Below the pieces are notes generated by a model. The model was not told the DNA's origin. It worked only from the letters and a program-made list of their open reading frames with translations, and made no database searches. A program made the position numbers and the translations under genes. A stretch of DNA of 64,000 bases, taken from the NCBI GenBank assembly GCA_003194525.1, contig NBIV01000016.1, forward strand, positions 460,091 to 524,090. Reading direction: 5' to 3'. This document shows positions 16,687-61,134 of this stretch, piece by piece. Each line of letters opens with the position of its first letter. Positions within the stretch are counted from its first letter, which is position 1. The DNA is from Gracilariopsis chorda. Taxonomy: Eukaryota; Rhodophyta; Florideophyceae; Gracilariales; Gracilariaceae.

Positions 16687-18495
16687 TTAGCTGTCCTGAA
16701 TTGATTCATGTTCATCGTTGTCCTTGTCTTCGCGGATAGCTCTTCTTCGCCCACTTCCACCTCTCTTCATTGGGTACTTTTCTGGATCTAAATTCAACGT
16801 CCGAGCACGATCCTTCAAGCTCATTGGCATTCTTGTGTAATCACATTCGGCGTAGTACTCATTCACAATATTGGTCCAAGCACCCCAGCCGTATTTCTTT
16901 ATACCTTCAACCAACCACTGGTCTTCGTGTTGCTGAAAACGGCCTCGTTTTATTACCTGGCCAAATTCGTTCTTGACTTCTTCTCGCCGGCGCTTGGTAG
17001 GCGTTGTGTTCAGGGATTTTGAGTGCGGAGTCTTGTACTTCATTTGCGTTCCATCCGACTCCGGAATAGGGCTAGCCTCTCGTGGAGGAGGAGCTGGACC
17101 ACGTGTGGGAGCAGAGCGCCGTCGCTTCGCTTTTTTCGCGTCTTTAAGGGATGACTGTAGAGGATCAGCGGGTCCAGTTCGTTTCAAACTTGCGGACGCT
17201 TCGTGTAGCTCCTGTATACAGTGTTCGTTCTCTTCTAGGTTAGCATGATCTAATTGATCGCTCAATGTGACGCTCTCTTCAGTAGTGCCATGCCGTGCTT
17301 GTCCTCGAACACGTTTCTTTTTTGACTGTGGCAGTACGTGTTCGTCGTCACTTTCTGAATCGGCAACCTCGGCGGGGAAGTCTAGAGAGTCCATGGATTC
17401 GTATTCTTTTGAATTCAGATCATCCTCCGCACCGGCCCTTTTTTCTCGCCGTCTTTCATGACGCACACGCCCCACAGACTCCTCATCGAGATGTGCACGA
17501 GAGCCTCGTTCTGTATACATCGCCTTTTTGGTTTTTCTTTCTTTCTCAACTGAAGGTTCTTCAACCGCTTCCATGGCTTGACCGTCATGGTCATCACTGC
17601 TTTCGTGATGGATCCCTGGCTCTTCCTCCTCGGGGAGGACGACGTCAGGGTACGCGGGTTCTGCAGATGGCTCGCCGTCTTCACCGCCATTAAGTCCATC
17701 AGAATCTGCCCCGTTTCTCTCCGCATCCGAAAAGGCGGTGGGAACAAAAGAGTCGCGTCGTTTTGACTTCGTACTCCGGGGATGATGTTTCTTTTCTACG
17801 ACGATGTCACTGGGAATGCTTCCTGCAGCAAACTTTGAGTACTCCATTTCGAGCTCATGGGCCTTTCTTTTGAGCAGGCGTGCTATTTCCCGAAGCGGGT
17901 TTTTCTTTTCGTATTCATGAAGAAACAGCAATGCCGTTCCTTTCTCAGAATCTCTGATAGCTTTGGCAGCTTTTCGAATCGTAGAGATTCCCTTATCACG
18001 CGCCCGCTTGAGTTGTACATTTCTAACCTTGGAATCTGAGAAGACATCGCAAATGAAATGAAATGTGCGGTTGAACTCGCGCGAGTTATATCGCATCGAT
18101 GATAGAATCACTTCATGAAGCGAAAATATGATGGTGACTCTCATGAGCGCCAGAACAGTTGACTCAGCCAAGGTCATACCAGAGTCCATGATAAATGAAA
18201 CCAACCACAATATTTGGTCATTGTTCTCAGCATCGTCGTGCAGCTTGCCCTCACTTAATATGTTGGCTAGTGAAATGATGTTTTTCGCTGCAGTTCTTAT
18301 TGACACTTGCCTTCGTACACGCTTAAGCAAAGCATCGTTCAAGTAGTGACCAAACTCGTCCATCACAATGGAACGCAGAGACTTTGACCACACAACACGT
18401 TCAAAGTCTCCGTGATGCACCATTATTCCTGACGGTTTGATATGACCCTGAGTCTGGGTGTAAATCAACTCGGAGGAGCTCTCCTTCCGGGTCAT
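16687..18495 (-). CDS. TRF-like protein with C-terminal telobox Myb domain
   Basis: 602 residues. A single Myb/SANT repeat lies at the C-terminus (about 519-575): GRFQQHEDQWLVEGIKKYG, WGAWTNIVNEYY, then SLKDRARTLNLD, which fits the telobox recognition helix (consensus LKDKWR) of telomere-repeat factors TRF1/TRF2/Taz1. Residues ~25-240 are a mostly helical domain (VVWSKSLRSIVMDEFGHYLN through the basic KAHELEMEYSKF), in the position of the TRFH dimerisation domain. The middle (~245-510) is acidic, Ser-rich and probably disordered. This order (helical N-domain, linker, terminal telobox Myb) is that of shelterin TRF proteins, so a telomeric duplex-DNA binder is the best inference. A plain transcription factor is possible. 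ATG at 18495; single exon. Confidence 0.7.
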   Translation of the reverse strand: MTRKESSSELIYTQTQGHIKPSGIMVHHGDFERVVWSKSLRSIVMDEFGHYLNDALLKRVRRQVSIRTAAKNIISLANILSEGKLHDDAENNDQILWLVSFIMDSGMTLAESTVLALMRVTIIFSLHEVILSSMRYNSREFNRTFHFICDVFSDSKVRNVQLKRARDKGISTIRKAAKAIRDSEKGTALLFLHEYEKKNPLREIARLLKRKAHELEMEYSKFAAGSIPSDIVVEKKHHPRSTKSKRRDSFVPTAFSDAERNGADSDGLNGGEDGEPSAEPAYPDVVLPEEEEPGIHHESSDDHDGQAMEAVEEPSVEKERKTKKAMYTERGSRAHLDEESVGRVRHERRREKRAGAEDDLNSKEYESMDSLDFPAEVADSESDDEHVLPQSKKKRVRGQARHGTTEESVTLSDQLDHANLEENEHCIQELHEASASLKRTGPADPLQSSLKDAKKAKRRRSAPTRGPAPPPREASPIPESDGTQMKYKTPHSKSLNTTPTKRRREEVKNEFGQVIKRGRFQQHEDQWLVEGIKKYGWGAWTNIVNEYYAECDYTRMPMSLKDRARTLNLDPEKYPMKRGGSGRRRAIREDKDNDEHESIQDS

Positions 18496-49375: not shown

Positions 49376-49403
49376 TGTGGTGCAACGCCCCAAAGGTGAG
49401 AAA
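49376..49403. repeat. 28-base partial copy of the LTR start
   Basis: TGTGGTGCAACGCCCCAAAG plus 8 bases lies directly before the full left LTR and matches the LTR's first 28 bases with a few changes. It is either a remnant of an earlier integration at the same site or a by-product of this one. Confidence 0.65.
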
Positions 49404-50210
49404 TGTGGTGCAATGCCCCAAAGGGGAAAAACACCGAAAGACGTCCGGGATCTTCCTCTCACGAGGTGAACCCAGTTGGGTAGAGCCCTCCCAGAGGTGT
49501 CACGGCGAAGCCGGTTTGTAAGACCAGGGACACCTGTCGCGACTCGCGCAGGGAGGTGAAGGCGAAGAATCGGTATCCGCGTGAGCGGGGTGTGATCCTC
49601 AGTAGAGGTATGTTTCCACGTAAGTGGGGGTGTGTGAGCGGATGCGCACACGAGGGCCGCGGATAGCGGGAGGTGCTACCCTAAAAAGGGGAAAGAGGAA
49701 GGACGAGTGGGTCGCGAGAGCGACGAGTAGATACGGCAATGCCGGTGGACAGGACTCCCTATACAGGGCGAAACACCAATATGATTGGAACAATTAGTAC
49801 TCCCAATGATGGGTCTTCTTTAGATGTGCAAGGGGGGTGAACTTCCGTACACTACGGTGCTTCCCTCCAAGGAGGAGTTGAGAACACGCGGAGGCGGTAA
49901 AGCTCAGAGCCAATTCCCCAGGTTGGGGTCCCTTGTTGGGGAAGGTTTACTGGTGCGACGGCAGTGCGCCGTCGCACTAAGTACTAGCTTCCCAGAAATG
50001 GGTGTGAAAATAATAAATAAAATTAACTAAAATACTCCACATTCCGTGGCAACATCCACTACTGTGGCCAACCGCCAATTGCCCCAAAACCGTGTCCCAC
50101 GTGTCCATACCCACCATTGTGGGGCGTAGTTCATATACACACTACACAACCGATAATATCGGGAAAGCGTTCAAGTACCCAGAATCCCTCCCTGAGGGCG
50201 TTGCACTTCA
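49404..50210 (-). repeat. left LTR (3' LTR of the element)
   Basis: 807 bases, TG...CA ended; the termini pair as TGTGGTGCAA / TTGCACTTCA. AT-rich AATAATAAATAAAATTAAC near 50009-50028 may serve as TATA box or poly(A) signal. It contains at least 20 short hairpins of the form CCNN...NNGG. Confidence 0.95.
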
Positions 50211-50225
50211 TATCCCCCCCCTAAG
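50211..50225 (-). promoter_or_regulatory. polypurine tract
   Basis: Directly inside the 3' LTR. Read on the minus strand it is CTTAGGGGGGGGATA, mainly purine (eight G), as expected for second-strand priming. Confidence 0.75.
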
Positions 50226-50266
50226 ACGGGAAAACGACCGCGGACGCGGAGGATTCCCAGACGAAA

Positions 50267-50973
50267 ATGGGTGATAAAAGCGCGTGCGCCGTCTCCGGTT
50301 CTCTGGTAAATCCCTCTGCACCAGAGTCAATACCTCCTGCTACTGCAGCTGTCATTTCCTCGCCTCGCCTTCGCGCTTCCTCGTCACCGAGCGTACTCCG
50401 ACAAACAACATCCACCACCACAGCCAACCTCCGAGGTCTCTCTGGCGATATACCACCGGTTTCCGGTCGGTTCCCCTGCCTCAGGGCGATCAACCTCCGG
50501 TACAACCGGGAAATACGGCTGCTGAAGCCGACCATCCCTTCGCATTACCACCTTCGGTGGGATCCTCCGAGGAGGCGCGCGAGCTTCGCGATACGCCCCG
50601 GCATGTGCCGGAAGACCACCCGGTGGGGTACGTCGTTTCAGACGACTACTACCGCGCATACGGCGGGGATGACCCAATGGTCGATAACGAACCGGAAGAA
50701 CCCGGGGAGATGGACGTAGAGGAAAACGGCGCTAGCGCGGAAGCTTTCCCAGAGGGGGCATCTCCGGCCGAGCCGGCTGCTGACCCTTCGGTGGCAAGTG
50801 CCGGACCTTCTATCCCCAGCGGGGTGACGGCGAATGAAAACGAAATCATCGCACGTTTCCTCCGGGGTGCCGGTCTTAGCGCTGCCGAGGTATCGGGGGA
50901 TGTCACCACCATGGCGGACGCGTTGGCCTACCGCCTCGCTGGGGGTTACGCCCCGGACGATGGGGGTGAGTGA
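50267..50973 (+). CDS. opposite-strand ORF of the retrotransposon (frameshifted)
   Basis: Lies between the 3' LTR and the end of pol, reading against gag-pol. It starts MGDKSACAVSGSLV (ATG at 50267, 57 bases from the LTR) and is Ser/Thr/Pro-rich. That frame is lost around 50450-50500, and the frame that is open from 50284 carries an acidic, protein-like C-terminus (EDHPVGYVVSDDYYRAYG, DNEPEEPGEMDVEENGA, ENEIIARFLRGAGLSAAEVS) to the stop at 50971-50973. A likely poly(A) signal AATAAA follows at 51061. The two halves would need one frameshift or a small intron. No known domain. It could be a chance ORF, but the compositional coherence and poly(A) signal argue for an accessory gene. Confidence 0.45.
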
Positions 50974-51164
50974 AACCTCTGGTCCAGTTTCCTGGTTCTT
51001 CTTTCCCTGGCTATGCCAGTTAGTGTAGTGTAGTATTGTGGGGAGCTAGCTGCTCCCTTGAATAAACTTTCCCGTTTAGAACGGTGCTTCTCGGTTGAGA
51101 TCCCCGTCTTCGACGGACTTTGCCTTGTTATCCTTTCCTTTCGCTCTCCGCTCGCGCGGCAACG

Positions 51165-54100
51165 TTACCCAACTTGGGCATTTACCAGCGTGGCTGGAGC
51201 TGCAGTTCCCGTTTGACGGTGGTATCGCAGGACCTGCGACCGTGGGAGGTGTTCCATTGGCTCCCACGTATCCCCACTGGGGTCGTACCCGTACCAGCGG
51301 ACGCGGTATTGTAGAATACCATCCTGGTCCCAGGTGTGTCCGACAAGTCGGTCTACTACGAACTCTCGTTCGTAGACCTGCCGGCCGTGCCGGGTGGTGG
51401 TTGTAATCCCTGGCGAGGGTTGCCCGCGGTGCGGTATAATGTCCCTTAGCAGGGTGTTCGGCGATAACTCTGACGTTGCCGTGCGCTGTCCTAGTGGCCG
51501 CTGCTCATGCGGGAAAATATCCCTCAAGAGGGTGTGTGGTGCCACGGTTTTCACCGGCAAGTCGTCCCCCAGAGGGGTGTCGTTGTTTCCGTCTTCACGG
51601 TAGGCCGGGCGAACCGCCAGTCGGCGGGGGACTTGGGTTCCGCCTTCGCGGTTGAGCGCACGAACCGCGAGTTTGCGGGAAGATGACCGCTCCTGCGGGA
51701 TCGGCATTTCCACAATCCCCTGGGGGGTCCCGTGCGACACGGTGATTGGGTGGCAAACCGCCTCCCTGCCAGGCGCACGAGCGCTCTGCACCATACGTTC
51801 CGGCGATGCCGTGGTGTCCCCGGCTACTGACGGGTTGCCTGGGGCTAACTCCGGTACACCGGTATTTTGGTCAAAATTCCCCTCTGGGGGGTTCCGGGCA
51901 GGTGCCGATGACACCCTTTTCAGGGGAATTGCCGCTAAGTGCGGTGCACCGTCTCCATGAGGAGGAGCAGCGTCCGGTACGACCGGTTTCGAGCGTGCGA
52001 TGGCGCGCGTTTTTCCCGAGTTCCTCGGTTCTTCGCCGCAGCGTTGCGGTAGTTGGCGCAAATTATTCCCCGGAACGGGGGCTTCGATTCCGTCTGCGAC
52101 GGGGAGCGTTTCCGAGCGCTGCGCGCCAGGGCCTGAAGCTTCGGATGCGGCTTGGCTACCCTTTTCCCCGATAGGGGTGTGGGTATTTCCCAGCGGCGCT
52201 GGTGTATCTGGGCGCCTCTTCTCCGCGGGGCGCGGGTCTGAGCGACCTGATTGAACCGCTTCCGCGGGGACTTCCGCCAATGGCGGCTTTGAGGCATCTC
52301 CCTGCTCAGGGGATTGAGGGCGATTGTCGCCGTACTCCCGTATCGGGGATCCTTCCCTGACAGGGGTGTGCGGTAGCTGCGTTTCAGCTTCCCGTGTAAC
52401 ACGGTGTATTTGCCGCCTTTGCGGGACCTGCGCGTCTGGTTCCTGTTGCACAGCGCTGCCCGAGGACGGGGGATTAGTGTCGCGTGAGATACTCCGTGCT
52501 CCACGGTCAGTTGTCCGTATGGTACGGCGTGTTTCCCGTTGCGACGGCGATCTCATTCCTCGAAAACGAGTGTTCTCCTCCCCCTCCTGAGACGGAGCGG
52601 CGGGATAAGGGATAACATGCCCCGCCTGGCGGGTGTAGATTCGCGCCATAGGGGCGGGCACAGAGAGGCCCGAATTACCCGGCTGAGCCGGTGAGTCCGA
52701 CAGGGTCGGTAGGTCTGAGAGTCCCCGGGAGGGGTGTGGTAGCACGGTAGGCCGTCTCACCACCGATGTATCGGATGCAGAGCCATATTCCAGCGTAGGG
52801 TCCAGCGTAGCTGGTGCAGCCTCAGTCGAGGGTGACGGAGCTAGCACGATGCGATCGCGAGATAACCGCTCATGCGCGTCACCCATTTCCACAACCACTG
52901 TGTCCGTCGTGACGGAGATAACCTTGAAAGGACCATCCGCCACAGGCGAGAGCTTATGGTGCTTCTCCCTTTCAGGGTTGTAGTACTCCTTGCGGACGAA
53001 TACGAAGTCCCCGGAGTTGATCTGTTCCGGTTTGCCTCCTCGCAAGCGAGCATCGAAATTCCGTTTGTAGACGGCTTGGGCGTGGTCCATCGCCTTCCGC
53101 GCTGCGGGTACCAGCTTGGTCAGCCATGCTTTCCACTTCTGGCGGTAATCCTTCACAGAAGGGAACGCGTCCAACGTAGGTTGGGATTCCAACGCCATTG
53201 GCGGGGGTGTCCGTGAAAGGACCAACTCGAAAGGGGATATTCCGGTAGTCCGGTGTACCTGCGTATTGTACGCAAAGGTCACGGCATCCGTGTAGATATC
53301 CCAAGTCTTGGGGTGGTCAGCCGTGTAAGCACGGAGAGCTGCGAGCATTGTCCGGTTGAAACGCTCGACCTGCCCATTAGACTGGGGATGATACGTGGTC
53401 GTGAAGAGATTCTTCACGTCCAGTATCCGACAGACGTCCTGGAAAAATCGCGATGCGAACTGTTTCCCGTTGTCGGAAAGTAGCTCCAAAGGAGGTCCGT
53501 AGGCAAACACCCAATGCCGCACAAAGGCGTGAGCGACCGTGTAGGCGGTAATCCTCTTTAGAGGGACTGTCCGAACTAATTTCGAGAACCTGTCCGTAAT
53601 AACGAGTAGGAACTTGTTGCCTCTCCTGGTAGAGAGCAATGGTCCGAGAATGTCAATTGCGACAAACTCGAGCGGCGCCCTGGCGGGGAATAGCTTCATC
53701 CGTTTGGAGTGCTTCCGGAGTTTGACCCGGTTCTTCGCGCATTGCGTGCAGAACCGCACCGTAGCGTAGCAATCAACCGCCATGGCGGGCCAGTAGAAAT
53801 CCCTGCGAAGGGTTAGATAAAGCTTCCTCCCACCGGAGTGTCCCCCGAGTTTCGGGTAATGCGAAAGGTGCAATATCCGCTTCTGTAGCGTGTGCGGTAC
53901 CACAACTTGTGGGGTAGCCTCGACGGTCCTCACGAGGTAACCAATGTCGTTCACCCCGAAGGGGAGGTTCTCTCCGCCGTTGAGGCGTGCACGTATCCTT
54001 GTACAGAAGGGGTCCCCGAATTGTTCTCGGATCATTTCCTCGGTCTCAACCGGTACATAATTTCCCGGTATGGGTTTCTCAGAATCATCTCGCGATGCGA

Positions 54101-55828
54101 GTAGGTAGTCGAAGTCAGCATCTTCGTCCCAGTTTTCTGGCTCAGCCTCGATGGCACATTCCGGATCATCCGGGTCCATTGCCATGAAACATGGGACTTC
54201 ATCATCCTCCGTTGGGAGTGCCTCCCCACTTGTGGGTAAACGCGACAGAGCGTCGGCTTGGGTGTTCTGCGCGCCCTTTTTATAAATGACTTGGAAGTCA
54301 TATTCCGCGAGGCGGAGTCTCCAGCGCATGAGGCGTCCCGACGGGTCGGAGATATTCATTAACCACCTCAGTGAGGAATGATCCGTGTACACGGTGAAAT
54401 GGACTCCCATAAGGTAGGGGCGCAGAGTGGTCATCGCCCATACGACGGCGAGGCACTCTTTCTCCGATACGGAGTAGTTCCGCTCATGGACATTGAGCGA
54501 GCGCGACCAATAACCAATTGGGTGTCGTTCCCCCTCGGGGGTGGTTTGAAAAAGAGCACACCCGACTTGGTAGTCGCTCGAGTCCGTATCTACGGAGTAT
54601 GGCAACCCAAGTTTTGGGAGATGTAGGATTGGTGCTGATGTGACAGCCTCCTTCAAGGAGTTAAAGGCTTCCGATTGCTCGGGCGTAAATGTTCCCAGTT
54701 TTGGGGGGTTCCCCTTTCGCAACAACGCGTTCAGGGGCGCTGCAGTATCCGAAAAGTTCGGGATAAACCGTCGATAGACGTTGACCAGCCCCAGAAAGGA
54801 GCGCAGTTCCGTTTGAGTACGGGGTTCTTTCGCCTCAACGAGGGATTTGACTCGAGCTTTCTCGATCGCTAACCGTCCAGGACGGATAATGTGACCCAGA
54901 TACTTCACAGTATCTGTGAAAAACTCGCATTTCCTCAACTTGAGGGTAATTCCCGCATCGCGGAGTACGGTCAGCACGTCTCGGACGTGAGTGAGATGGT
55001 CGTCCAACGAGTTGGAGAAGATGATAATATCATCAAGGTAGACCAGACAACTCCGCCACTTAAAGCGGTTGAGTAGGATATCTACTGCACGCTGAAAGGT
55101 GGCGGGGGCGTTGGTTAACCCAAATGGCATCCGCTTGAAGCGGTACGTTCCTGCATGGCAGGTGAATGCGGTTTTGTCGCGATCCTCCTGTCTGACAGGT
55201 ACTTGCCAATACCCCAATTGGCATCAAGGGCCGTGAACACGGTGGCGTCTCCAAGGGAGTCAATGCACTCGTCCATACGAGGGATGGGGTACGTGTCCCT
55301 AACAGTCACGGCATTGAGCCGGCGGTAGTCGACACAGAACCTCCAGGTTCCGTCGGCCTTTAAAGCCAGTACAACTGGGGATGCCCAGGGCGATTGAGCG
55401 GGCTCAATCACACCTGCGCGGAGCATCTTGTCCACCTGGGACTGCTCCTCTTCCCGAGCTTTCGGACCTGCCCTGTAAGGGGGTTGTGCAACCGGTCGCG
55501 CACCGGGGATTAAATCGATCCGGTGTTCCGTTGCATCAATCTCGCCAAGCGAGCCATCCCACATTGTGGTGAATTCCCGTAACATAGTACGGAGTTTGTC
55601 GCGGTGCGACTCTGGCACGTGGCTGAAGTCCAGCGCTTCAAGTGCTTTTTCCGGATCAAATCCGGTCATTGCTCGATGGAGCATTGTCCTGTGGAACAGG
55701 TGTGGTTCGCAATTCCGAGTTACTCGGTATGTTCGACGCTGAAGTAGCGGTTTCCTCCCCCTCCTTAGACTTGACGTCTTCGGACGGCGGGGTGAACTCC
55801 TCAGAAGAGGTGGTAACTCCGAGTACAT
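51165..55828 (-). CDS. pol: pol: RT, RNase H, integrase, chromodomain (frame broken)
   Basis: The N-terminal part of RT is in 55115-55828 (VDKMLRAGVIEPAQSPWASP, FCVDYRRLNAVTVRDTYPIP, VFTALDANWG). The frame then shifts by one base near 55205-55215 to the long ORF ending at 51165, which continues YWQVPVRQ, FGLTNAPATFQ and the catalytic YLDD. RNase H follows (VDTDSSDYQVG, SEKECLAVVWA, YTDHSSLRWL), then integrase with a zinc-binding His2Cys2 region (HLSHYPKLGGHSGG ... CTQCAKNR) and the DDE core (VAIDILGPL, LLSDNGKQF, GQVERFNRTM), a GPF segment, about 480 low-complexity residues, and a C-terminal chromodomain (VVDRLVGHTWDQDGI, YRVRWYGYDPSGDTWEP). The shift inside RT inactivates this copy unless it is a sequencing error. 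Confidence 0.92.
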
Positions 55829-56756
55829 CGGCGGCTGTCATCTTCGTTGGCAGCATTCCCATAGGATGGGGGGTTACACTCCCAATTACTTGGTGTTTGA
55901 CCAGATACTGGGGGTGTTTGCCAAGGTTGGCAACCAATATCCGGAAAGGAACATCCGGGGAAATGGAGACAATTCCATTAGCCAGCGCCAGCTGGGATTT
56001 CTCGTACAACGAGGCGAGGGGTTGTATAACCCGAAGACCGTGTTGACGGGAATTTACCTGTACCCAGACTTGGGACTCAGCCGGTATAGAAACCGAGGCA
56101 GCGACGCGGAGCTTGGTGGACTCGCGGGACGCGGGCGGTGGTTCCTGCGCAGCAGGGAGCGGAACTTGTTTCCGAGAGGACCGCTTTAGCGGGCGGCGAA
56201 CAATCGGAACCGACGATCCGTCGTCAAGTTCTACACGCCTGAGGCGGGGCCTGATTGCGTCGACAAATCTGTCGCAGTAATCACATCCCAGTATGACTGG
56301 TGCTGCCAGTGAACGGCAAACGATGAAGTCCAACTTCACCACAGATGTACCAAGTCTCACGACGAGGTCCACTGTGCCCACCGTTTGTAACGGATTGTTG
56401 TTCGCATCCGAAATGTCGGGGACGGCGTCAGAGCGGATACGCGACCGCACAAGCGGGGGTAACAATGATTCCACAACGAAGTTGGGGCCTGCACCTGTAT
56501 CCAGGACGGTGAGAAACCTCACCATAAACTGGGGATCAAGGCCAAGGTCGGCATAGACCTTATAGTTGCGCTTGGCCATGACCAAGACTCTACCGGGAAT
56601 CCGGGGATTTTTACTCCGTATCCACGGGCGACGCAACACACCGAGGTGCGCAGAGTCCGCGTCAGCGGTGTCTTTCCTCGAGAGGATTTTCACCGGGGAG
56701 CGAGGCGAGGACGCCTCGGGCGCCAACAGCCTCGTTTTTGAGGACGCCTCTCCCAA
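55656..56756 (-). CDS. pro: retrotransposon aspartic protease region
   Basis: 366 codons in the -1 frame relative to gag. The catalytic motif is VLDTGAGPNFVV (Asp86), followed by SRIRSDAVPDISDANNNPLQ, VILGCDYCDRFVD (the conserved hydrophobic-Leu-Gly strand) and a basic Pro-rich tail. It cleaves the Gag-Pol polyprotein (family knowledge). Its reading frame is open across the gag stop, so it is likely made by frameshifting. It overlaps the RT frame by about 170 bases and needs another frame change to enter RT. Confidence 0.8.
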   Translation of the reverse strand: MGEASSKTRLLAPEASSPRSPVKILSRKDTADADSAHLGVLRRPWIRSKNPRIPGRVLVMAKRNYKVYADLGLDPQFMVRFLTVLDTGAGPNFVVESLLPPLVRSRIRSDAVPDISDANNNPLQTVGTVDLVVRLGTSVVKLDFIVCRSLAAPVILGCDYCDRFVDAIRPRLRRVELDDGSSVPIVRRPLKRSSRKQVPLPAAQEPPPASRESTKLRVAASVSIPAESQVWVQVNSRQHGLRVIQPLASLYEKSQLALANGIVSISPDVPFRILVANLGKHPQYLVKHQVIGSVTPHPMGMLPTKMTAADVLGVTTSSEEFTPPSEDVKSKEGEETATSASNIPSNSELRTTPVPQDNAPSSNDRI

Positions 56757-56773
56757 AGGGGAGACTCCCTCAG

Positions 56774-56783
56774 TTAGTTTTCC
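56774..56783 (-). promoter_or_regulatory. candidate -1 frameshift site at the gag stop
   Basis: On the minus strand GGAAAAC (56783-56777) is followed at once by the gag stop TAA. Slipping one base back continues into the protease frame. A hairpin CTCCC-cttt-GGGAG follows about 10 bases downstream. Confidence 0.6.
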
Positions 56784-58948
56784 GCCTTCGGCGGTGGGTT
56801 GGTTTCCTCGACAACGAGTGCTTCATCCCGTTGACGGGGGTTTCTATCCGCATAAGCGGGGGTTGCAACGGATGGTTGCGTGATCTCCCGAATCGGGGTG
56901 TATGAAGCTTGCCGCGCACGCGGGGTCTGTGGTAGGGCGTGAGAAAAGTCCGTTTTAGCACGGAGGTAGGAAGCCGTCGGGACGGAACGTTTCTCCTCTG
57001 GAGTGAGGGCCTCATAATTTGCCACCACCTTGGCCATATCCTTCAGTGAACAAATACACTGAGGAGAGGTATGGCCATGGGCATAGCACAGGTGGCAAAT
57101 GAGAGCCAGCACCGCGACACGCGGAATATTATTCCGAGTATCGGAGAAGCGAACCGCAGGGCGGGTGTCAGTCCATCCAGGCCGTTGATAACGGGATTGA
57201 CCGTTTGAAAACGGGAGTCGTTGGGGTTGAACCCGACTGTTACCACCGTATAGAACGGGATCTTCTGTTCCCGTATCATGGGTCATCTCCGTCGTTGACG
57301 GTAACTCACTGGTGGGTATCGACACACCATCCCCCTGCGCTAAATGCACGGTATCAAATCCCTGTCCAGGGTTCCCATCCGCGGTGAGCGGGAGAGAGGA
57401 AGCTTCGCTTTCCAGCAACAACGCCTTGGCGGATTTAGACCGATTGTTCGGAGTTCTTGCACGAAGTGCATCCCCTTCCGCTCGAGCGTGTTGGACCAGC
57501 TCGAGGTAGGTGATCCTTCGCTTGTCCTCCCGATAACGGGTAACTAAACTCCGGATTGCCGGGTCAAGACCATCAATGAACATGGTACTGCGCTCCCCAG
57601 CGGGGTATACGTTACCACATCTGTGGAAAGCCTTGTTAAGGCGCACCGAGTAATCGGTCTCGGTCTCTCCAGCACGCTGGCGTGTATCTCGCAAAGCGAG
57701 GATAGCCTGCTGAATAGCGGTGTTGGTGGCGTAGGAGCGCAGAAGATACTGCACAGCCTCCGGCCAGCAAGTAACTCCTCCCTCGGAGGCGCGAGAAGAT
57801 CCTCGGACAGAGGTGTATTGGTCCTCGGCCACTCCCCGTAAGAAATACGGTAAAGCCAAATAGGCTTGTCCCTCATTCATACCGAGGATATCGGCCTCCG
57901 CTACAAAGCGGGATAGGAAATCTAGTACTAGGACTGGGTCCTCTCCAGTAAAATACTGGTTGCGGAGCGAGAGCTGCATTCGCTTAATGCATTCTCGCAC
58001 CTTTCCCGTACCACGGGGCGTACGTCCAAGTGACGAATCTTCAAGCCGGTAGTACCGGTATGATAAAAGCTTCCGATAATCCGGGTTTGTCGGTTTCAAT
58101 TCCCGGAGACCGGGGTGTCTTCTCCCCTTCTGGCGGGTTCGGACCACACCTTCAGTGGCCGATGACCGCTTCGAGCGGGAGGAGTAGCCTCGCTTCTCGT
58201 CCTCCGAGTCGGAGTCCGAGGAGCTCGAGCTAACCGAATGGTTTCGGGGTGAGTCCGACGATGTCGAAGAATCGGAGTCCGAATATTTTCGGTGATGTTT
58301 CCGTCGGTGACGGCGTTTCTTCTTCCCAGCAAGCTGGTCGTTGTGTGATGCCTCGTTTACCGGATCACCCGGGGATGGTTTGTCCATGAGGACGAACTGC
58401 TCCAGCGTCTCCAGGCGGGCACCAATCCGATCAAATCGGGCTTCAACTCCTTCGATGAAGGCGGCGGGTTGTCCCAAACTCTCCAACACGGAGTTGACGT
58501 CAGACCGTAAAATACGGAGCTCCTCGGCGACCTCCTTTACGGGGGTTGCCGAGACCACCTCTTGGAGGGATTTTAGTTCCCCTACAAGGGTGTCATGGGC
58601 GGTCCACAGAGCGCGGACCTGGGATTCCAGGGAAGTTCCCTGGGGGGTGTTATCACCCGTTCCACGGGGGCTTGAAGCCGCGACAGCGGGAGCAGGCCGG
58701 GGTGCCTGGGGCACTGCGGCAACAGCCGGAGTCGATGCTGCATTCCCCTGCGGGGGTGATAACGAGGGCAAAAGGAGGTTCCGGGGTTCCCGGTCGGGGG
58801 TATCATTCCGCGATGAAGCGGCGCCAGCACGGCTGGAACTTGTCCGTATAGGGATACGGGGTACGAACCGAACTTCGGAAGAGTCCGCGTTGTCGCGGGA
58901 GCGACTACGCGTAACCACTGGCTCCGCGTCGGAGGGATTTCTCGACAT
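56774..58948 (-). CDS. gag: retrotransposon Gag
   Basis: 724 residues, ATG at 58948, 106 bases inside the 5' LTR. The N-terminal ~300 residues are low-complexity: Pro/Ala-rich, a coiled segment (VRALWTAHDTLVGELKSLQE), then Arg/His/Ser-rich. The capsid-like core is recognisable by FLSRFVAEADILGMNEGQAY and LRDTRQRAGETETDYSVRLN. One CCHC zinc knuckle near the C-terminus, CHLCYAHGHTSPQC, fits CX2CX4HX4C. It packages the element RNA. The stop TAA follows GAAAAC directly, which forms a frameshift signal. Confidence 0.9.
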   Translation of the reverse strand: MSRNPSDAEPVVTRSRSRDNADSSEVRFVPRIPIRTSSSRAGAASSRNDTPDREPRNLLLPSLSPPQGNAASTPAVAAVPQAPRPAPAVAASSPRGTGDNTPQGTSLESQVRALWTAHDTLVGELKSLQEVVSATPVKEVAEELRILRSDVNSVLESLGQPAAFIEGVEARFDRIGARLETLEQFVLMDKPSPGDPVNEASHNDQLAGKKKRRHRRKHHRKYSDSDSSTSSDSPRNHSVSSSSSDSDSEDEKRGYSSRSKRSSATEGVVRTRQKGRRHPGLRELKPTNPDYRKLLSYRYYRLEDSSLGRTPRGTGKVRECIKRMQLSLRNQYFTGEDPVLVLDFLSRFVAEADILGMNEGQAYLALPYFLRGVAEDQYTSVRGSSRASEGGVTCWPEAVQYLLRSYATNTAIQQAILALRDTRQRAGETETDYSVRLNKAFHRCGNVYPAGERSTMFIDGLDPAIRSLVTRYREDKRRITYLELVQHARAEGDALRARTPNNRSKSAKALLLESEASSLPLTADGNPGQGFDTVHLAQGDGVSIPTSELPSTTEMTHDTGTEDPVLYGGNSRVQPQRLPFSNGQSRYQRPGWTDTRPAVRFSDTRNNIPRVAVLALICHLCYAHGHTSPQCICSLKDMAKVVANYEALTPEEKRSVPTASYLRAKTDFSHALPQTPRARQASYTPIREITQPSVATPAYADRNPRQRDEALVVEETNPPPKAEN

Positions 58949-59038
58949 GAGAAAATACCGTTACGACGGGAAACGATCACGGAACTTCCGGTGAATGAAA
59001 ACAAACCTCGTAAGAGGGAAAACAAAAACCGATTCTAA

Positions 59039-59051
59039 GGTCAGGAGACCA
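59039..59051 (-). promoter_or_regulatory. primer binding site
   Basis: Three bases inside the 5' LTR, the minus strand reads TGGTCTCCTGACC; the leading TGG pairs with tRNA CCA. It is not the initiator-Met primer sequence used by many Ty3 elements. Confidence 0.6.
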
Positions 59052-59054
59052 CTT

Positions 59055-59862
59055 TGTGGTGCAATGCCCCAAAGGGGAAAAACACCGAAAGACGTCCGGG
59101 ATCTTCCTCTCACGAGGTGAACCCAGTTGGGTAGAGCCCTCCCAGAGGTGTCACGGCGAAGCCGGTTTGTAAGACCAGGGACACCTGTCGCGACTCGCGC
59201 AGGGAGGTGAAGGCGAAGAATCGGTATCCGCGTGAGCGGGGCGTGATCCTCAGTAGAGGTATGTTTCCACGTAAGTGGGGGTGTGTGAGCGGATGCGCAC
59301 ACGAGGGCCGCGGATAGCGGGAGGTGCTACCCTAAAAAGGGGAAAGAGGGAGGACGAGTGGGTCGCGAGAGCGACGAGTAGATACGGCAATGCCGGTGGA
59401 CAGGACTCCCTATACAGGGCGAAACACCAATATGATTGGAACAATTAGTACTTCCCAATGATGGGTCTCCTTTAGATGTGCAAGGGGGGTGAACTTCCGT
59501 ACACTACGGTGCTTCCCTCCAAGGAGGAGTTGAGAACACGCGGAGGCGGTAAAGCTCAGAGCCAATTCCACAGGTTGGGGTCCCTTGTTGGGGAAGGTTT
59601 ACTGGTGCGACGGCAGTGCGCCGTCGCACTAAGTACTAGCTTCCCAGAAATGGGTGTGAAAATAATAAATAAAATTAACTAAAATACTCCACATTCCGTG
59701 GCAACATCCACTACTGTGGCCAACCGCCAATTGACCCAAAACCGTGTCCCACGTGTCCATACCCACCATTGTGGGGCGTAGTTCATATACACACTACACA
59801 ACCGATAATATCGGGAAAGCGTTCAAGTACCCAGAATCCCTCCCTGAGGGCGTTGCACTTCA
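59055..59862 (-). repeat. right LTR (5' LTR of the element)
   Basis: 808 bases, nearly identical to the left LTR; differences include one extra T near 59451 and a C-to-A change that breaks a CCCCA/TGGGG hairpin. Promoter for the minus-strand transcript. Confidence 0.95.
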
Positions 59863-61134
59863 AACTTCTAAGCATTTCAAATATGGTTCCGTGAAATAGC
59901 AAGACCAATATTTGCCTGAGGAATAAACTTAGAGAAGAGCTCAAGGCTCCAAAGATCCCGTCTGTTTGAGAACTCAATGCGAGTCATGAGGGTAAGAATT
60001 CCAAAGAATTTGAGCAGTTCTCCTCCTGAAGTCCTTCAAACTTCTTTGATTTCCAACCGAACATTCGTTCTGTTCATTATGAACTGCAAATGCTGCATAG
60101 GTTACATCCGAAGGAAGAACTCTAATTCACTCATTTTGGAAGAACGTGACGCGGTGAGATAAAATCTTCGGCTAAGCAACAACTGTTCACTGATGGCAAT
60201 TTTCATACAAACACTCAAGGGAATCAACGTCGTACAGGTCTTCCACACACGACCATGAATCAAAAATGATTCGACAGGTGCATTTTTGCTTAATAAACTT
60301 GTTCGCGGCTGCAACAATTGCATCTAAGATGGTGTGACTAGAGCATCTTCCTCTATGTTTTCCTTATTTATCGGTTCTACCTTGCTTAATACATTTTTCT
60401 ACAGAATTCACGGCTTCTTGAACACAAGTACGTAGTTTGACTCTCTGAATAGAGGTACCGTGACTTTATTTAGGTTCGTTAGACTCAATTAACAGTCAGA
60501 AAAGTGAGATTTTGATTGTTAATCTTTCGAATGTCAAACGTGAGAGCGGAACTTTGTACTGTTGTTCTTGTCCATAGAAATCCATATTAAGGTGTGCATT
60601 CAGCGTCATTTCGAAATAGACGAGCACGGCTGTTGACAGTTGTTCCAATAGTTTTTCGAAGATCTGTGGACGGAGCCATTGTTTAGGGGTTTTTTTAGGG
60701 GGTTTTGATATGCAGCAATAACGTGGTGCTGTACTTTTGATTGGTTAAAAGCAGTGGTTTATTGATTGTTAGCCTACCATAATGCGTTTTAGTTCATTTC
60801 GAGCACCATTGGCGTGCTTCAGAGTGGAGGCTAGAGGAAATAGGGAATTGACGTGAGGATTATGACTGGTGTTTTGTACATGACCGGTTTTATATTTCTG
60901 ACTCGGACTGTCTAACCTAACTAAGGCATTTGTGCGACAAAGACCTTCGCACCCTTAAAAATAGTGAAATGCACGATTTTCGTTTTTTGGGCGCAAACTG
61001 CGCCAGAACTCAAAATCGTGCTTCACGTTCATTTTTTGACCTTTTGGTACCCCAACTCTCTGCACCAATGATAATCAAAAGTTTTGGACAATCAAAACGT
61101 TTGATTCTCTGGTTTGTGACCGCTCAAGCTCTCG
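59863..61134. other. no gene recognised
   Basis: 1.3 kb of AT-richer sequence right of the retrotransposon. Short ORFs (59977-60162, 60102-60323) without domains. I could not find the missing half of the interrupted transposase here. Confidence 0.5.

Follow-up and report, generated by a model that had tools for sequence, protein, structure and literature searches.

Can a transposable element carry a second, structural code along its entire length while still encoding proteins, or can small perfect hairpins be left throughout it by the way in which it is copied? The question is raised by an LTR retrotransposon of the red alga Gracilariopsis chorda, found in a 64,000-nucleotide stretch of contig NBIV01000016.1 (hereafter the window), in which short inverted repeats follow one another from one LTR to the other.

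Architecture of the element

The element (49404-59862) is a chromodomain Ty3/gypsy LTR retrotransposon coded on the minus strand (Table 1). Its two LTRs, both with TG...CA ends, differ in 6 of 808 aligned columns, and the 5' LTR has at least 42 genomic matches, of which 40 are 99-100% identical. The Pfam domains of the pol ORF are ordered RT, RNase H and then integrase, with the chromodomain C-terminal, while the gag-like ORF gives no Pfam match above the cut-off. No target-site duplication is common to the flanks (...AGAAA and AACTT...) of this one, possibly rearranged copy, and the filing under Ty3/gypsy is based on gene content. Its middle part is split into two overlapping ORFs, so that the reading frame of pol seems interrupted here; in other copies, open frames reach as many as 1885 codons. 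An additional gene lies antisense between pol and the 3' LTR. Its product reaches about 595-609 aa in other copies, matches no Pfam family above the cut-off and has 5 matches among the candidates scored, including G. chorda and Gracilaria domingensis.

Table 1. Features of the element, in window coordinates
Feature	Position	Strand	Remarks
3' LTR	49404..50210	-	807 bp; TG...CA ends; ~20 CC hairpins; 24.8 CC hairpins/kb
Array of CC...GG perfect micro-hairpins	49416..59850		224 non-overlapping hairpins; 26.8% of element covered
G-run adjoining 3' LTR, likely polypurine tract	50214..50221	-	By eye
Antisense gene, shortened	50284..50973	+	229 aa; middle part absent in this copy
pol ORF	51165..55217	-	RT (part), RNase H, H2C2, integrase core, chromodomain (Pfam)
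Example hairpin CCTCtttaGAGG	53553..53564		Within pol
Middle coding part	55115..56756	-	Two overlapping ORFs, 55115-55828 and 55656-56756
Example hairpin CCGCTtgaAGCGG	55131..55143		CCGTT...AACGG at same site in sister family C (compensatory)
gag-like ORF	56774..58948	-	724 aa; CCHC zinc-knuckle-like motif (by eye)
5' LTR	59055..59862	-	808 bp; 19 non-overlapping CC hairpins

Density and confinement of the hairpins

A CC hairpin is defined here as a perfect hairpin with CC first (CC...GG), a stem of at least 4 pairs and a loop of 3-6 nt. All 19 hairpins quoted in the first-pass annotation were located where it had placed them, and the density it had expected to exceed that of flanks and shuffles does so. 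The whole element has 22.2 CC hairpins/kb (24.8 in the left LTR, 21.8 internally), against 1.7/kb in its dinucleotide shuffles (1.7-1.9/kb over all parts shuffled, 20 shuffles each) and 0.0, 0.3, 0.3, 0.7 and 1.5/kb in the five other stretches of the window counted. LTRs, gag, pol, the 3' region and the antisense gene harbor them alike, and the 1 kb of DNA beyond each LTR contains no CC hairpin start. The pattern is, as proposed, a structural one restricted to the element and not a tandem repeat. The further claim that stems nearly always read CCNN..NNGG is right for the excess, which is 12-fold for CC, but only about half of all perfect hairpins are CC-first; the other 5' dinucleotides are partly inner frames of CC stems.

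The hairpins are equally independent of codon use. In codon-preserving shuffles (200 per element ORF, 50 per other window ORF), 12.3 CC hairpins were obtained for the pol ORF (max 22), 5.3 for the gag-like ORF (max 13) and 2.8 for the ORF at 55656-56756 (max 8), where 93, 53 and 21 are observed, respectively. Five other long ORFs of the window have 0-5 each. Hairpin starts fall in all three codon phases, so that the pattern is indeed accommodated within coding DNA, and the CC...GG spacing is itself enriched (216 vs 123.7 in codon shuffles). One of the five other window ORFs, 16687-18495, contains 35 hairpins of any kind, compared with 20.6±4.3 in codon-preserving shuffles.

The GC content of the element, 0.57, is above the 0.45-0.47 of most of the window, which might have favored an origin by chance, base composition or codon bias. 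However, a stretch of similar GC content (20.0-26.2 kb, GC 0.55) has just 1.5/kb vs 1.1 in shuffles, and neither dinucleotide nor codon-preserving shuffles reproduce the density; on these shuffles, such an origin is rejected as having practically no chance of being correct.

Anatomy and spacing

Most hairpins span 11-13 nt, with stem/loop sizes of 4/3, 4/4 or 5/3. Each unit opens with 5'-CC and closes with GG; between them lie 2-3 Watson-Crick pairs that vary freely and a loop of 3-4 nt, which is of a foldable size. For CC..GG spans of 13, 12 and 11 nt, complementarity extends to pairs 5, 4 and 4, respectively, and is then at background. No loop sequence dominates among 97 triloops and 90 tetraloops. 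The neighboring bases are strand-asymmetric in the LTR and in the coding parts, C or A preceding the hairpin and A following it on the sense strand; the flanks in family C are strand-asymmetric as well.

The spacing of about 20 bases given by the first-pass annotation holds as a tendency, the best period being 20.5 nt (z 4.4, reached by 0 of 300 simulations). It is not strict: gaps of 6-14 nt are frequent, gaps of 15-26 nt rarer and long gaps common. Of four other pieces, one (L074) has a significant spacing, with a best period of 24.0 nt, and three do not. Protein sites two helical turns apart, as had been suggested, agree with the 20.5-nt tendency, but folded stems would be needed, because the arms vary yet stay complementary and complementarity is at background where the 3-4 nt loop is left. 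A double-stranded palindrome bound by a dimeric protein was rejected as the sole cause, since the arms vary freely and complementarity ends before the centre.

Conservation between copies and families

The pattern was found in all 30 pol copies fetched, whereas, of 30 other gypsy loci fetched from the same genome, 28 show no CC hairpin excess; many of these 30 loci represent the same few families, and the 28 negatives have a GC content of at most 0.51. By eye, the raised count at locus L061 belongs to an adjoining LTR of the hairpin family. Sister family C exhibits a weaker version, with 406 hairpins vs 160 in shuffles and, in pol, 140 vs 59.8 in codon shuffles; its outer CC is less marked (8-13/kb), TC...GA is also present, and its hairpins were compared with those of A as raw counts. 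Protein relatives reach up to 64% identity, and further families can be found at other places in the G. chorda genome. Six stretches in an IMG/VR scan fit the pattern, none of them a relative, and full-text searches of open-licence papers listed no report of such an element.

Between an A copy (L009) and a B copy (L034), third codon positions diverge by 28.4% in gaps, 23.5% in loops, 17.9% in inner stems and 9.0% in the CC/GG clamps, and two further B copies give nearly the same values. Singletons among 23 A copies amount to 4.3-5.0% in every class, this uniformity ruling out mutational cold spots. Less favorably for selection, inner stems of the more distant copy L033 lag only slightly behind gaps at third positions (31.5% vs 35.3%), although clamps are slow there too (14.6%), in comparisons that take in a stretch past the point where its resemblance to the other copies ends. 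Under a null that ignores codon position, and with pieces that overlap slightly, 198 stems are identical between A and B vs 141 expected, 13 are lost vs 70 expected and 33 are broken on one side vs about 102 expected. The compensatory changes that had been anticipated in other copies exist in small number: 4 compensated stems vs 0.9 expected, as in CCAACctacGTTGG/CCAAGctacCTTGG and CCCTgaaAGGG/CCCGgaaCGGG. Non-pairing multi-base changes are also in excess (7 vs a null of 2.1), while hairpins are not swapped for different ones more often than the null predicts (7 vs 9.1). The hairpins are conserved between subfamilies, and it seems from these alignments that selection keeps them, which suggests a function.

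An explanation without function can also be put forward, in which the reverse transcriptase or a host polymerase often folds the new strand back at CC...GG and uses one arm as the template for the other; hairpins would then accumulate and be mended at each round. Template switching is described as making and mending perfect hairpins (PMC8794818) and has been put forward to explain the perfect palindromes in coding genes of nematomorph mitochondria, which likewise lack imperfect repeats (PMC6649704). Coordinated changes of both arms point in the same direction, e.g., at a site reading CCCT/AGGG in A and L033 and CCGC/GCGG in L034. However, if mending is assumed to carry a mutation over to the second arm about as frequently as it erases it, the drop in one-sided changes (33 vs about 102 expected) should be accompanied by about 34 two-sided Watson-Crick changes, and only 5 are seen (null 1.9). 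Copying also leaves unexplained the enrichment of the CC...GG spacing and the clamps being the slowest third-codon sites. By eye, no clear arm-copy event appears in the difference clusters of 23 of 24 near-identical copies (the other, L021, has many differences and looks recombinant), and the 28 gypsy loci devoid of the pattern likewise speak against a general copying process. Overall, this explanation is considered rather unlikely.

Pairing rules and the molecule involved

Stems are nearly all Watson-Crick, and G.U is near the mismatch level on both strands. Where an RNA-energy fit predicts 172 one-GU stems on the sense strand, 17 are observed; a DNA-energy fit over-predicts the G.T stems as well (124 vs 17). 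At equal RNA energy, Watson-Crick stems occur at 2.5-15 times expectation and one-GU stems at 0.4-1.2 times. When DNA energies are used instead, Watson-Crick stems are enriched 5-8 times without a trend below about -2 kcal/mol, where G.T stems are few, and in the energy bin from -3 to -2 they occur at 6.0 times expectation vs 0.27 times for G.T. Stem frequency is hardly tied to stability at all (fit b 0.02 for RNA and 0.16 for DNA). Were folding under selection, such a weak dependence would be surprising; it is more easily reconciled with a copying process. The copying mechanism raised by the first-pass annotation accords with exact pairing and independence of stability, but does not on its own account for stems that break being eliminated much more frequently than they are changed in both arms, nor for the slow CC/GG clamps.

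Folded as DNA, the element has z-scores of -2.3/-2.1 (sense/antisense) vs -1.7/-1.4 as RNA, the latter from 32 sampled segments of 150 nt (sense mean z -1.71). The mean pair probability of the stems is 0.64/0.62 as DNA vs 0.45/0.41 as RNA. Chance hairpins in host DNA also rise under DNA parameters, from 0.33 to 0.43, so the advantage of DNA is partly general. CCG exceeds CCC, against the RNA order, and CCA and CCT do likewise relative to expectation. The DNA and RNA energy scales are correlated (0.88), and the arms are well ordered by neither of them; the DNA energy order of the arms was set aside as too weak to support a DNA reading.

It can be hypothesized that the hairpins fold in the genomic RNA, as dispersed Gag-binding or packaging sites or as a genome-wide ordered structure. 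The negative RNA z-scores of both strands, the A-rich flanks specific to the sense strand and the CCHC motif of the gag-like protein are compatible with this role, and coat proteins are reported to contact dispersed stem-loops in several RNA viruses. The compaction or packaging role named in the first-pass annotation is nevertheless made less likely by the rarity of G.U pairs, seen on both strands, and the loops share no sequence. The stem pair probability, 0.45 on the sense strand as RNA vs 0.64 as DNA, also counts against it, though host hairpins shift likewise. Action at the RNA level is thus judged improbable.

Guides and targets of small RNAs are 21-25 nt long. With a stem every ~20 nt in both sense and antisense RNA, they would be mostly self-structured and the element shielded. 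G.U would be barred if both strands had to pair, the spacing tendency is near 20 nt, and the antisense gene would imply antisense transcription. Nonetheless, the RNA pair probabilities are modest, and the CC/GG clamp and the asymmetry of the flanks would be left unexplained, which makes such a shield quite improbable.

The reading preferred here, with a probability slightly below 0.4, is that the lineage retains its whole sequence as a series of C-clamped micro-hairpins and that these act at the DNA level, the single-stranded cDNA of reverse transcription being the most likely stage. The CC/GG base and its strand-specific neighbors would be read by a protein, e.g., the element's own nucleocapsid, and the benefit could be compaction or protection of the cDNA, or avoidance of re-annealing or host repair. 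More doubtful is the wider proposal that selection makes the whole of this selfish element fold as single-stranded DNA, giving the cDNA of at least two families of one seaweed, during reverse transcription, a protein-readable "hairpin coat" of C-clamped stems at intervals of roughly two helical turns. Over-prediction of G.T by the DNA-energy fit and the shift of host hairpins under DNA parameters weaken the DNA reading and raise the copying explanation.

If the DNA reading is true, a 10-kb coding element obeys two codes at once: besides encoding proteins in gag, pol and the antisense gene, its sequence satisfies a structural code in which bases pair by DNA and not RNA rules. This would also reveal a selective pressure on retrotransposon cDNA for which no report is known. 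If copying is the cause, a polymerase leaves perfect hairpins throughout an element genome. Either answer bears on the origin and persistence of short inverted repeats.

Comparison with known systems

The element resembles other Ty3/gypsy chromodomain elements in its LTRs, RT-RNase H-integrase order and chromodomain, and is set apart by hairpin saturation and by the antisense gene between pol and the 3' LTR. An extra ORF beside gag-pol is shared with LTR elements described in the Retand paper (PMC11963269), which names antisense ORFs, and in a review (PMC7264820); the G. chorda antisense protein differs in having no Pfam family above the cut-off and 5 matches among the candidates scored.

Ordered RNA structure pairs by RNA rules, G.U being allowed. 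In the GORS of persistent RNA viruses, structure likewise extends over the whole coding genome with negative folding z, and a folding energy below that of shuffles was also found along the G. chorda element. In contrast, its units are hairpins of 11-13 nt closed by a constant CC/GG clamp, in which G.U occurs at about the mismatch level instead of being tolerated. Dispersed packaging signals (MS2, STNV, parechovirus, HBV) also consist of many small stem-loops along a genome. The HBV stem-loops are reported to share the loop motif RGAG, whereas in the G. chorda element the loops have no common motif and it is the base of the stem that stays constant.

Template-switch hairpins have perfect Watson-Crick stems, as do those of the G. 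chorda element, and multi-base coordinated changes. An even spread of mutations to the other arm, inferred from that mechanism, was not seen, with 5 two-sided changes vs ~34 expected. Template-switch hairpins are shown in PMC8794818 for RNA genes and microRNA loci, while the G. chorda pattern is saturating and C-clamped. Lastly, the palindromes of nematomorph mitochondria are, according to PMC6649704, also perfect inverted repeats in coding genes with no excess of imperfect ones; they reach 284 bp, whereas the G. chorda units are short, clamped, spaced by ~20 nt and present in non-coding LTRs as well.

The Element and Its Copies

Judged by its genes, the element at 49404-59862 is an ordinary gypsy retrotransposon (see table). 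The insertion is young, since its LTRs differ at only 6 of 808 columns. In this copy, the reading frame of pol seems to be disrupted within the 55.1-56.8 kb part; in other copies it stays open for up to 1885 codons. No target-site duplication is seen at its flanks. Host DNA just left of the LTR (49376-49396) holds TGTGGTGCAACGCCCCAAAGG, a near-match to the LTR start TGTGGTGCAATGCCCCAAAGG, and 59030-59055, adjoining the 5' LTR, shows by eye a possible primer-binding site, itself a small hairpin (GGTCaggaGACC). The nearest named relatives of a 5-oxoprolinase also present in the window are from Agarophyton chilense and Gracilaria domingensis.

Features of the window copy, with places of the antisense gene in two other loci (L072, L074)
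Feature	Position	Strand	Remarks
5' LTR	59055-59862	minus-strand element	
3' LTR	49404-50210	minus-strand element	
gag-like ORF	56774-58948	minus-strand element	
pol	end at 51165	minus-strand element	RT, RNase H, integrase, chromodomain
Antisense gene, window copy	50284-50973	+	229 aa, middle lost
Antisense gene	L072:809-2596	-	
Antisense gene	L074:2211-3437	-	

The genome (91.3 Mb, 1081 contigs) contains at least 42 LTR and at least 68 pol matches. The copies split by protein identity to the window copy into subfamilies A (95-100%) and B (about 90-92%). Identity between A and B is 98.7% on the gag side (locus L071 versus window 56001-59900) but 89.6% in pol (locus L034 versus window 51771-56717), a contrast which suggests recombination between the subfamilies; the A copy L021 also looks recombinant.

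Density and Architecture of the Hairpins

The first-pass annotation had proposed that the element, and nothing around it, is saturated with micro-hairpins, and all 19 examples it quoted are present at the positions given. The pattern is real: perfect CC-first hairpins (CC...GG, stem of at least 4, loop of 3-6; hereafter CC hairpins) reach 22.2/kb in the element versus 1.7/kb in shuffles. Codon-preserving shuffles give 12.3 in pol and 5.3 in gag, against 93 and 53 observed. The confinement also stands, with zero CC hairpin starts in the 1 kb outside the LTR ends and 0.0, 0.3, 0.3, 0.7, and 1.5/kb in five other stretches of the window. Elsewhere in the genome, all 30 fetched pol copies of the element lie at 16.8-20.6 CC hairpins/kb, and 28 of 30 other gypsy loci, many of them copies of a few families and with GC of at most 0.51, at 0-0.6/kb; the two exceptions adjoin an LTR of the element's family (L061) or belong to a sister family (L067). 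A window ORF at 16687-18495 (-) has 35 hairpins of any kind versus 20.6±4.3 in codon shuffles, only two being CC hairpins.

On the sense strand, the unit reads C or A, CC, two to three free pairs, a 3-4-nt loop, the complement, GG, and then mostly A, with commonest spans of 11-13 nt. The 5' arm is C-first, with little or no excess of G-first arms, and no loop motif common to the hairpins was found. Complementarity inside units drops to background once a 3-4-nt loop is left, which fits the expectation for a folding strand. Gaps between adjacent units tend to 6-14 nt. The proposed spacing of about 20 bases holds as a tendency, with a best period of 20.5 nt (z 4.4, 0 of 300 simulations); of four further pieces, L074 lends support (24.0 nt) and three lend none.

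The Antisense Gene

LTR elements with extra ORFs have been described (PMC11963269, PMC7264820). Here, a gene common to several related families lies on the opposite strand between pol and the 3' LTR, encoding 595 aa in one copy of subfamily B and 408 aa in one of family C, a sister family with a weaker pattern. Its hairpins number 75 (B) and 45 (C) versus 33.5 and 19.1 in codon shuffles. In the protein, no Pfam family scores over the cut-off and no solved structural relative was found by sequence; a protein search returned five hits (G. chorda, Gracilaria domingensis, and three unnamed sequences). The G. chorda relative has 82 listed genome matches at about 50-100% identity, most without internal stops, and residues 1-491 of the 617 in the named protein, BWQ96_03215, have a match at 100% identity. 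Further places with this gene, on contigs C30, C2, C912, C556, C219, C231, C164, C532, C69, C42, C146, and C71 of the same genome (G000), are 61-100% identical to the named protein and probably represent other families.

Conservation Between Copies

Between A copy L009 and B copy L034, third-codon divergence is 28.4% in gaps (242/853), 23.5% in loops (20/85), 17.9% in inner stems (17/95), and 9.0% in the outer CC/GG clamps (9/100), with near-equal figures for L035 and L037. With the more distant L033, only the clamps (14.6%) stand out, because inner stems (31.5%) come near gaps (35.3%); loops are at 34.5%. Singletons in subfamily A, counted in 23 of 24 copies with L021 left out, amount to 4.3-5.0% in every site class. 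Taken with the uneven A/B divergence, this makes mutation look even across site classes and fixation uneven.

Over three slightly overlapping pieces, and relative to a null that ignores codon position, 198 of 224 stems are identical between A and B (null 141), 13 lost (70), 7 overlapped by another hairpin (9.1), and 2 deleted (2.8); one-sided breaks number 33 (about 102). Compensatory changes, recommended as a check by the first-pass annotation, are found in 4 stems (null 0.9). At a single site, the arms are CCCT/AGGG in A and L033 and CCGC/GCGG in L034. In raw counts, 8 of 45 A hairpins persist in family C (75% pol protein identity), half of these 8 through compensation; in the reverse direction, 10 of 20 C hairpins persist, 2 through compensation.

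Pairing Rules and Possible Mechanism

Tolerance of G.U pairs on one strand would be expected of stems kept for RNA stability. When only stems with intact CC/GG ends and one intact inner pair are counted, family A has 17 one-G.U stems and family C 18, against 172 and 122 predicted by an RNA-energy fit; in A, 26 stems carry A.C (G.U on the opposite strand) and 52 carry one of the eight other mismatch types. Compared at matched RNA energy, Watson-Crick stems reach 2.5-15 times expectation and one-G.U stems 0.4-1.2 times. The DNA energy scale gives a level Watson-Crick enrichment of 5-8 fold below about -2 kcal/mol, with G.T stems at 0.3-1.2 fold. Z-scores of the element are more negative when folded as DNA than as RNA, and the pair probability of its hairpins in the predicted structure is 0.64 versus 0.45, although chance hairpins in host DNA move likewise (0.43 versus 0.33). 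Against a pure DNA-stability reading, the DNA-energy fit over-predicts G.T too (124 versus 17), stem frequency is nearly independent of stability, Watson-Crick and G.T stems still differ within one DNA energy bin, and arms are poorly ordered by either energy scale. Exact complementarity itself may therefore be what counts.

For the pattern, conservation, and pairing rules observed, the favored reading is that the hairpins would act in single-stranded cDNA, their C clamp being read by a protein. Its chief competitor is fold-back copying by the polymerase, a process already known to generate perfect stems (PMC8794818) and also proposed for the perfect coding palindromes of nematomorph mitochondria (PMC6649704). 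While such copying accounts well for strict pairing, it leaves clamp conservation unexplained and, if it spread mutations as often as it removed them, about 34 two-sided changes would be expected versus 5. Both processes may be at work, with copying as source and selection as keeper.

Comparison With Known Systems

Searches of open-licence full texts turned up no LTR element described as saturated with micro-hairpins. The hairpin coat of this element differs from ordered RNA structure, from packaging signals, and from pure template-switch palindromes, each comparison failing in at least one of the tests made.
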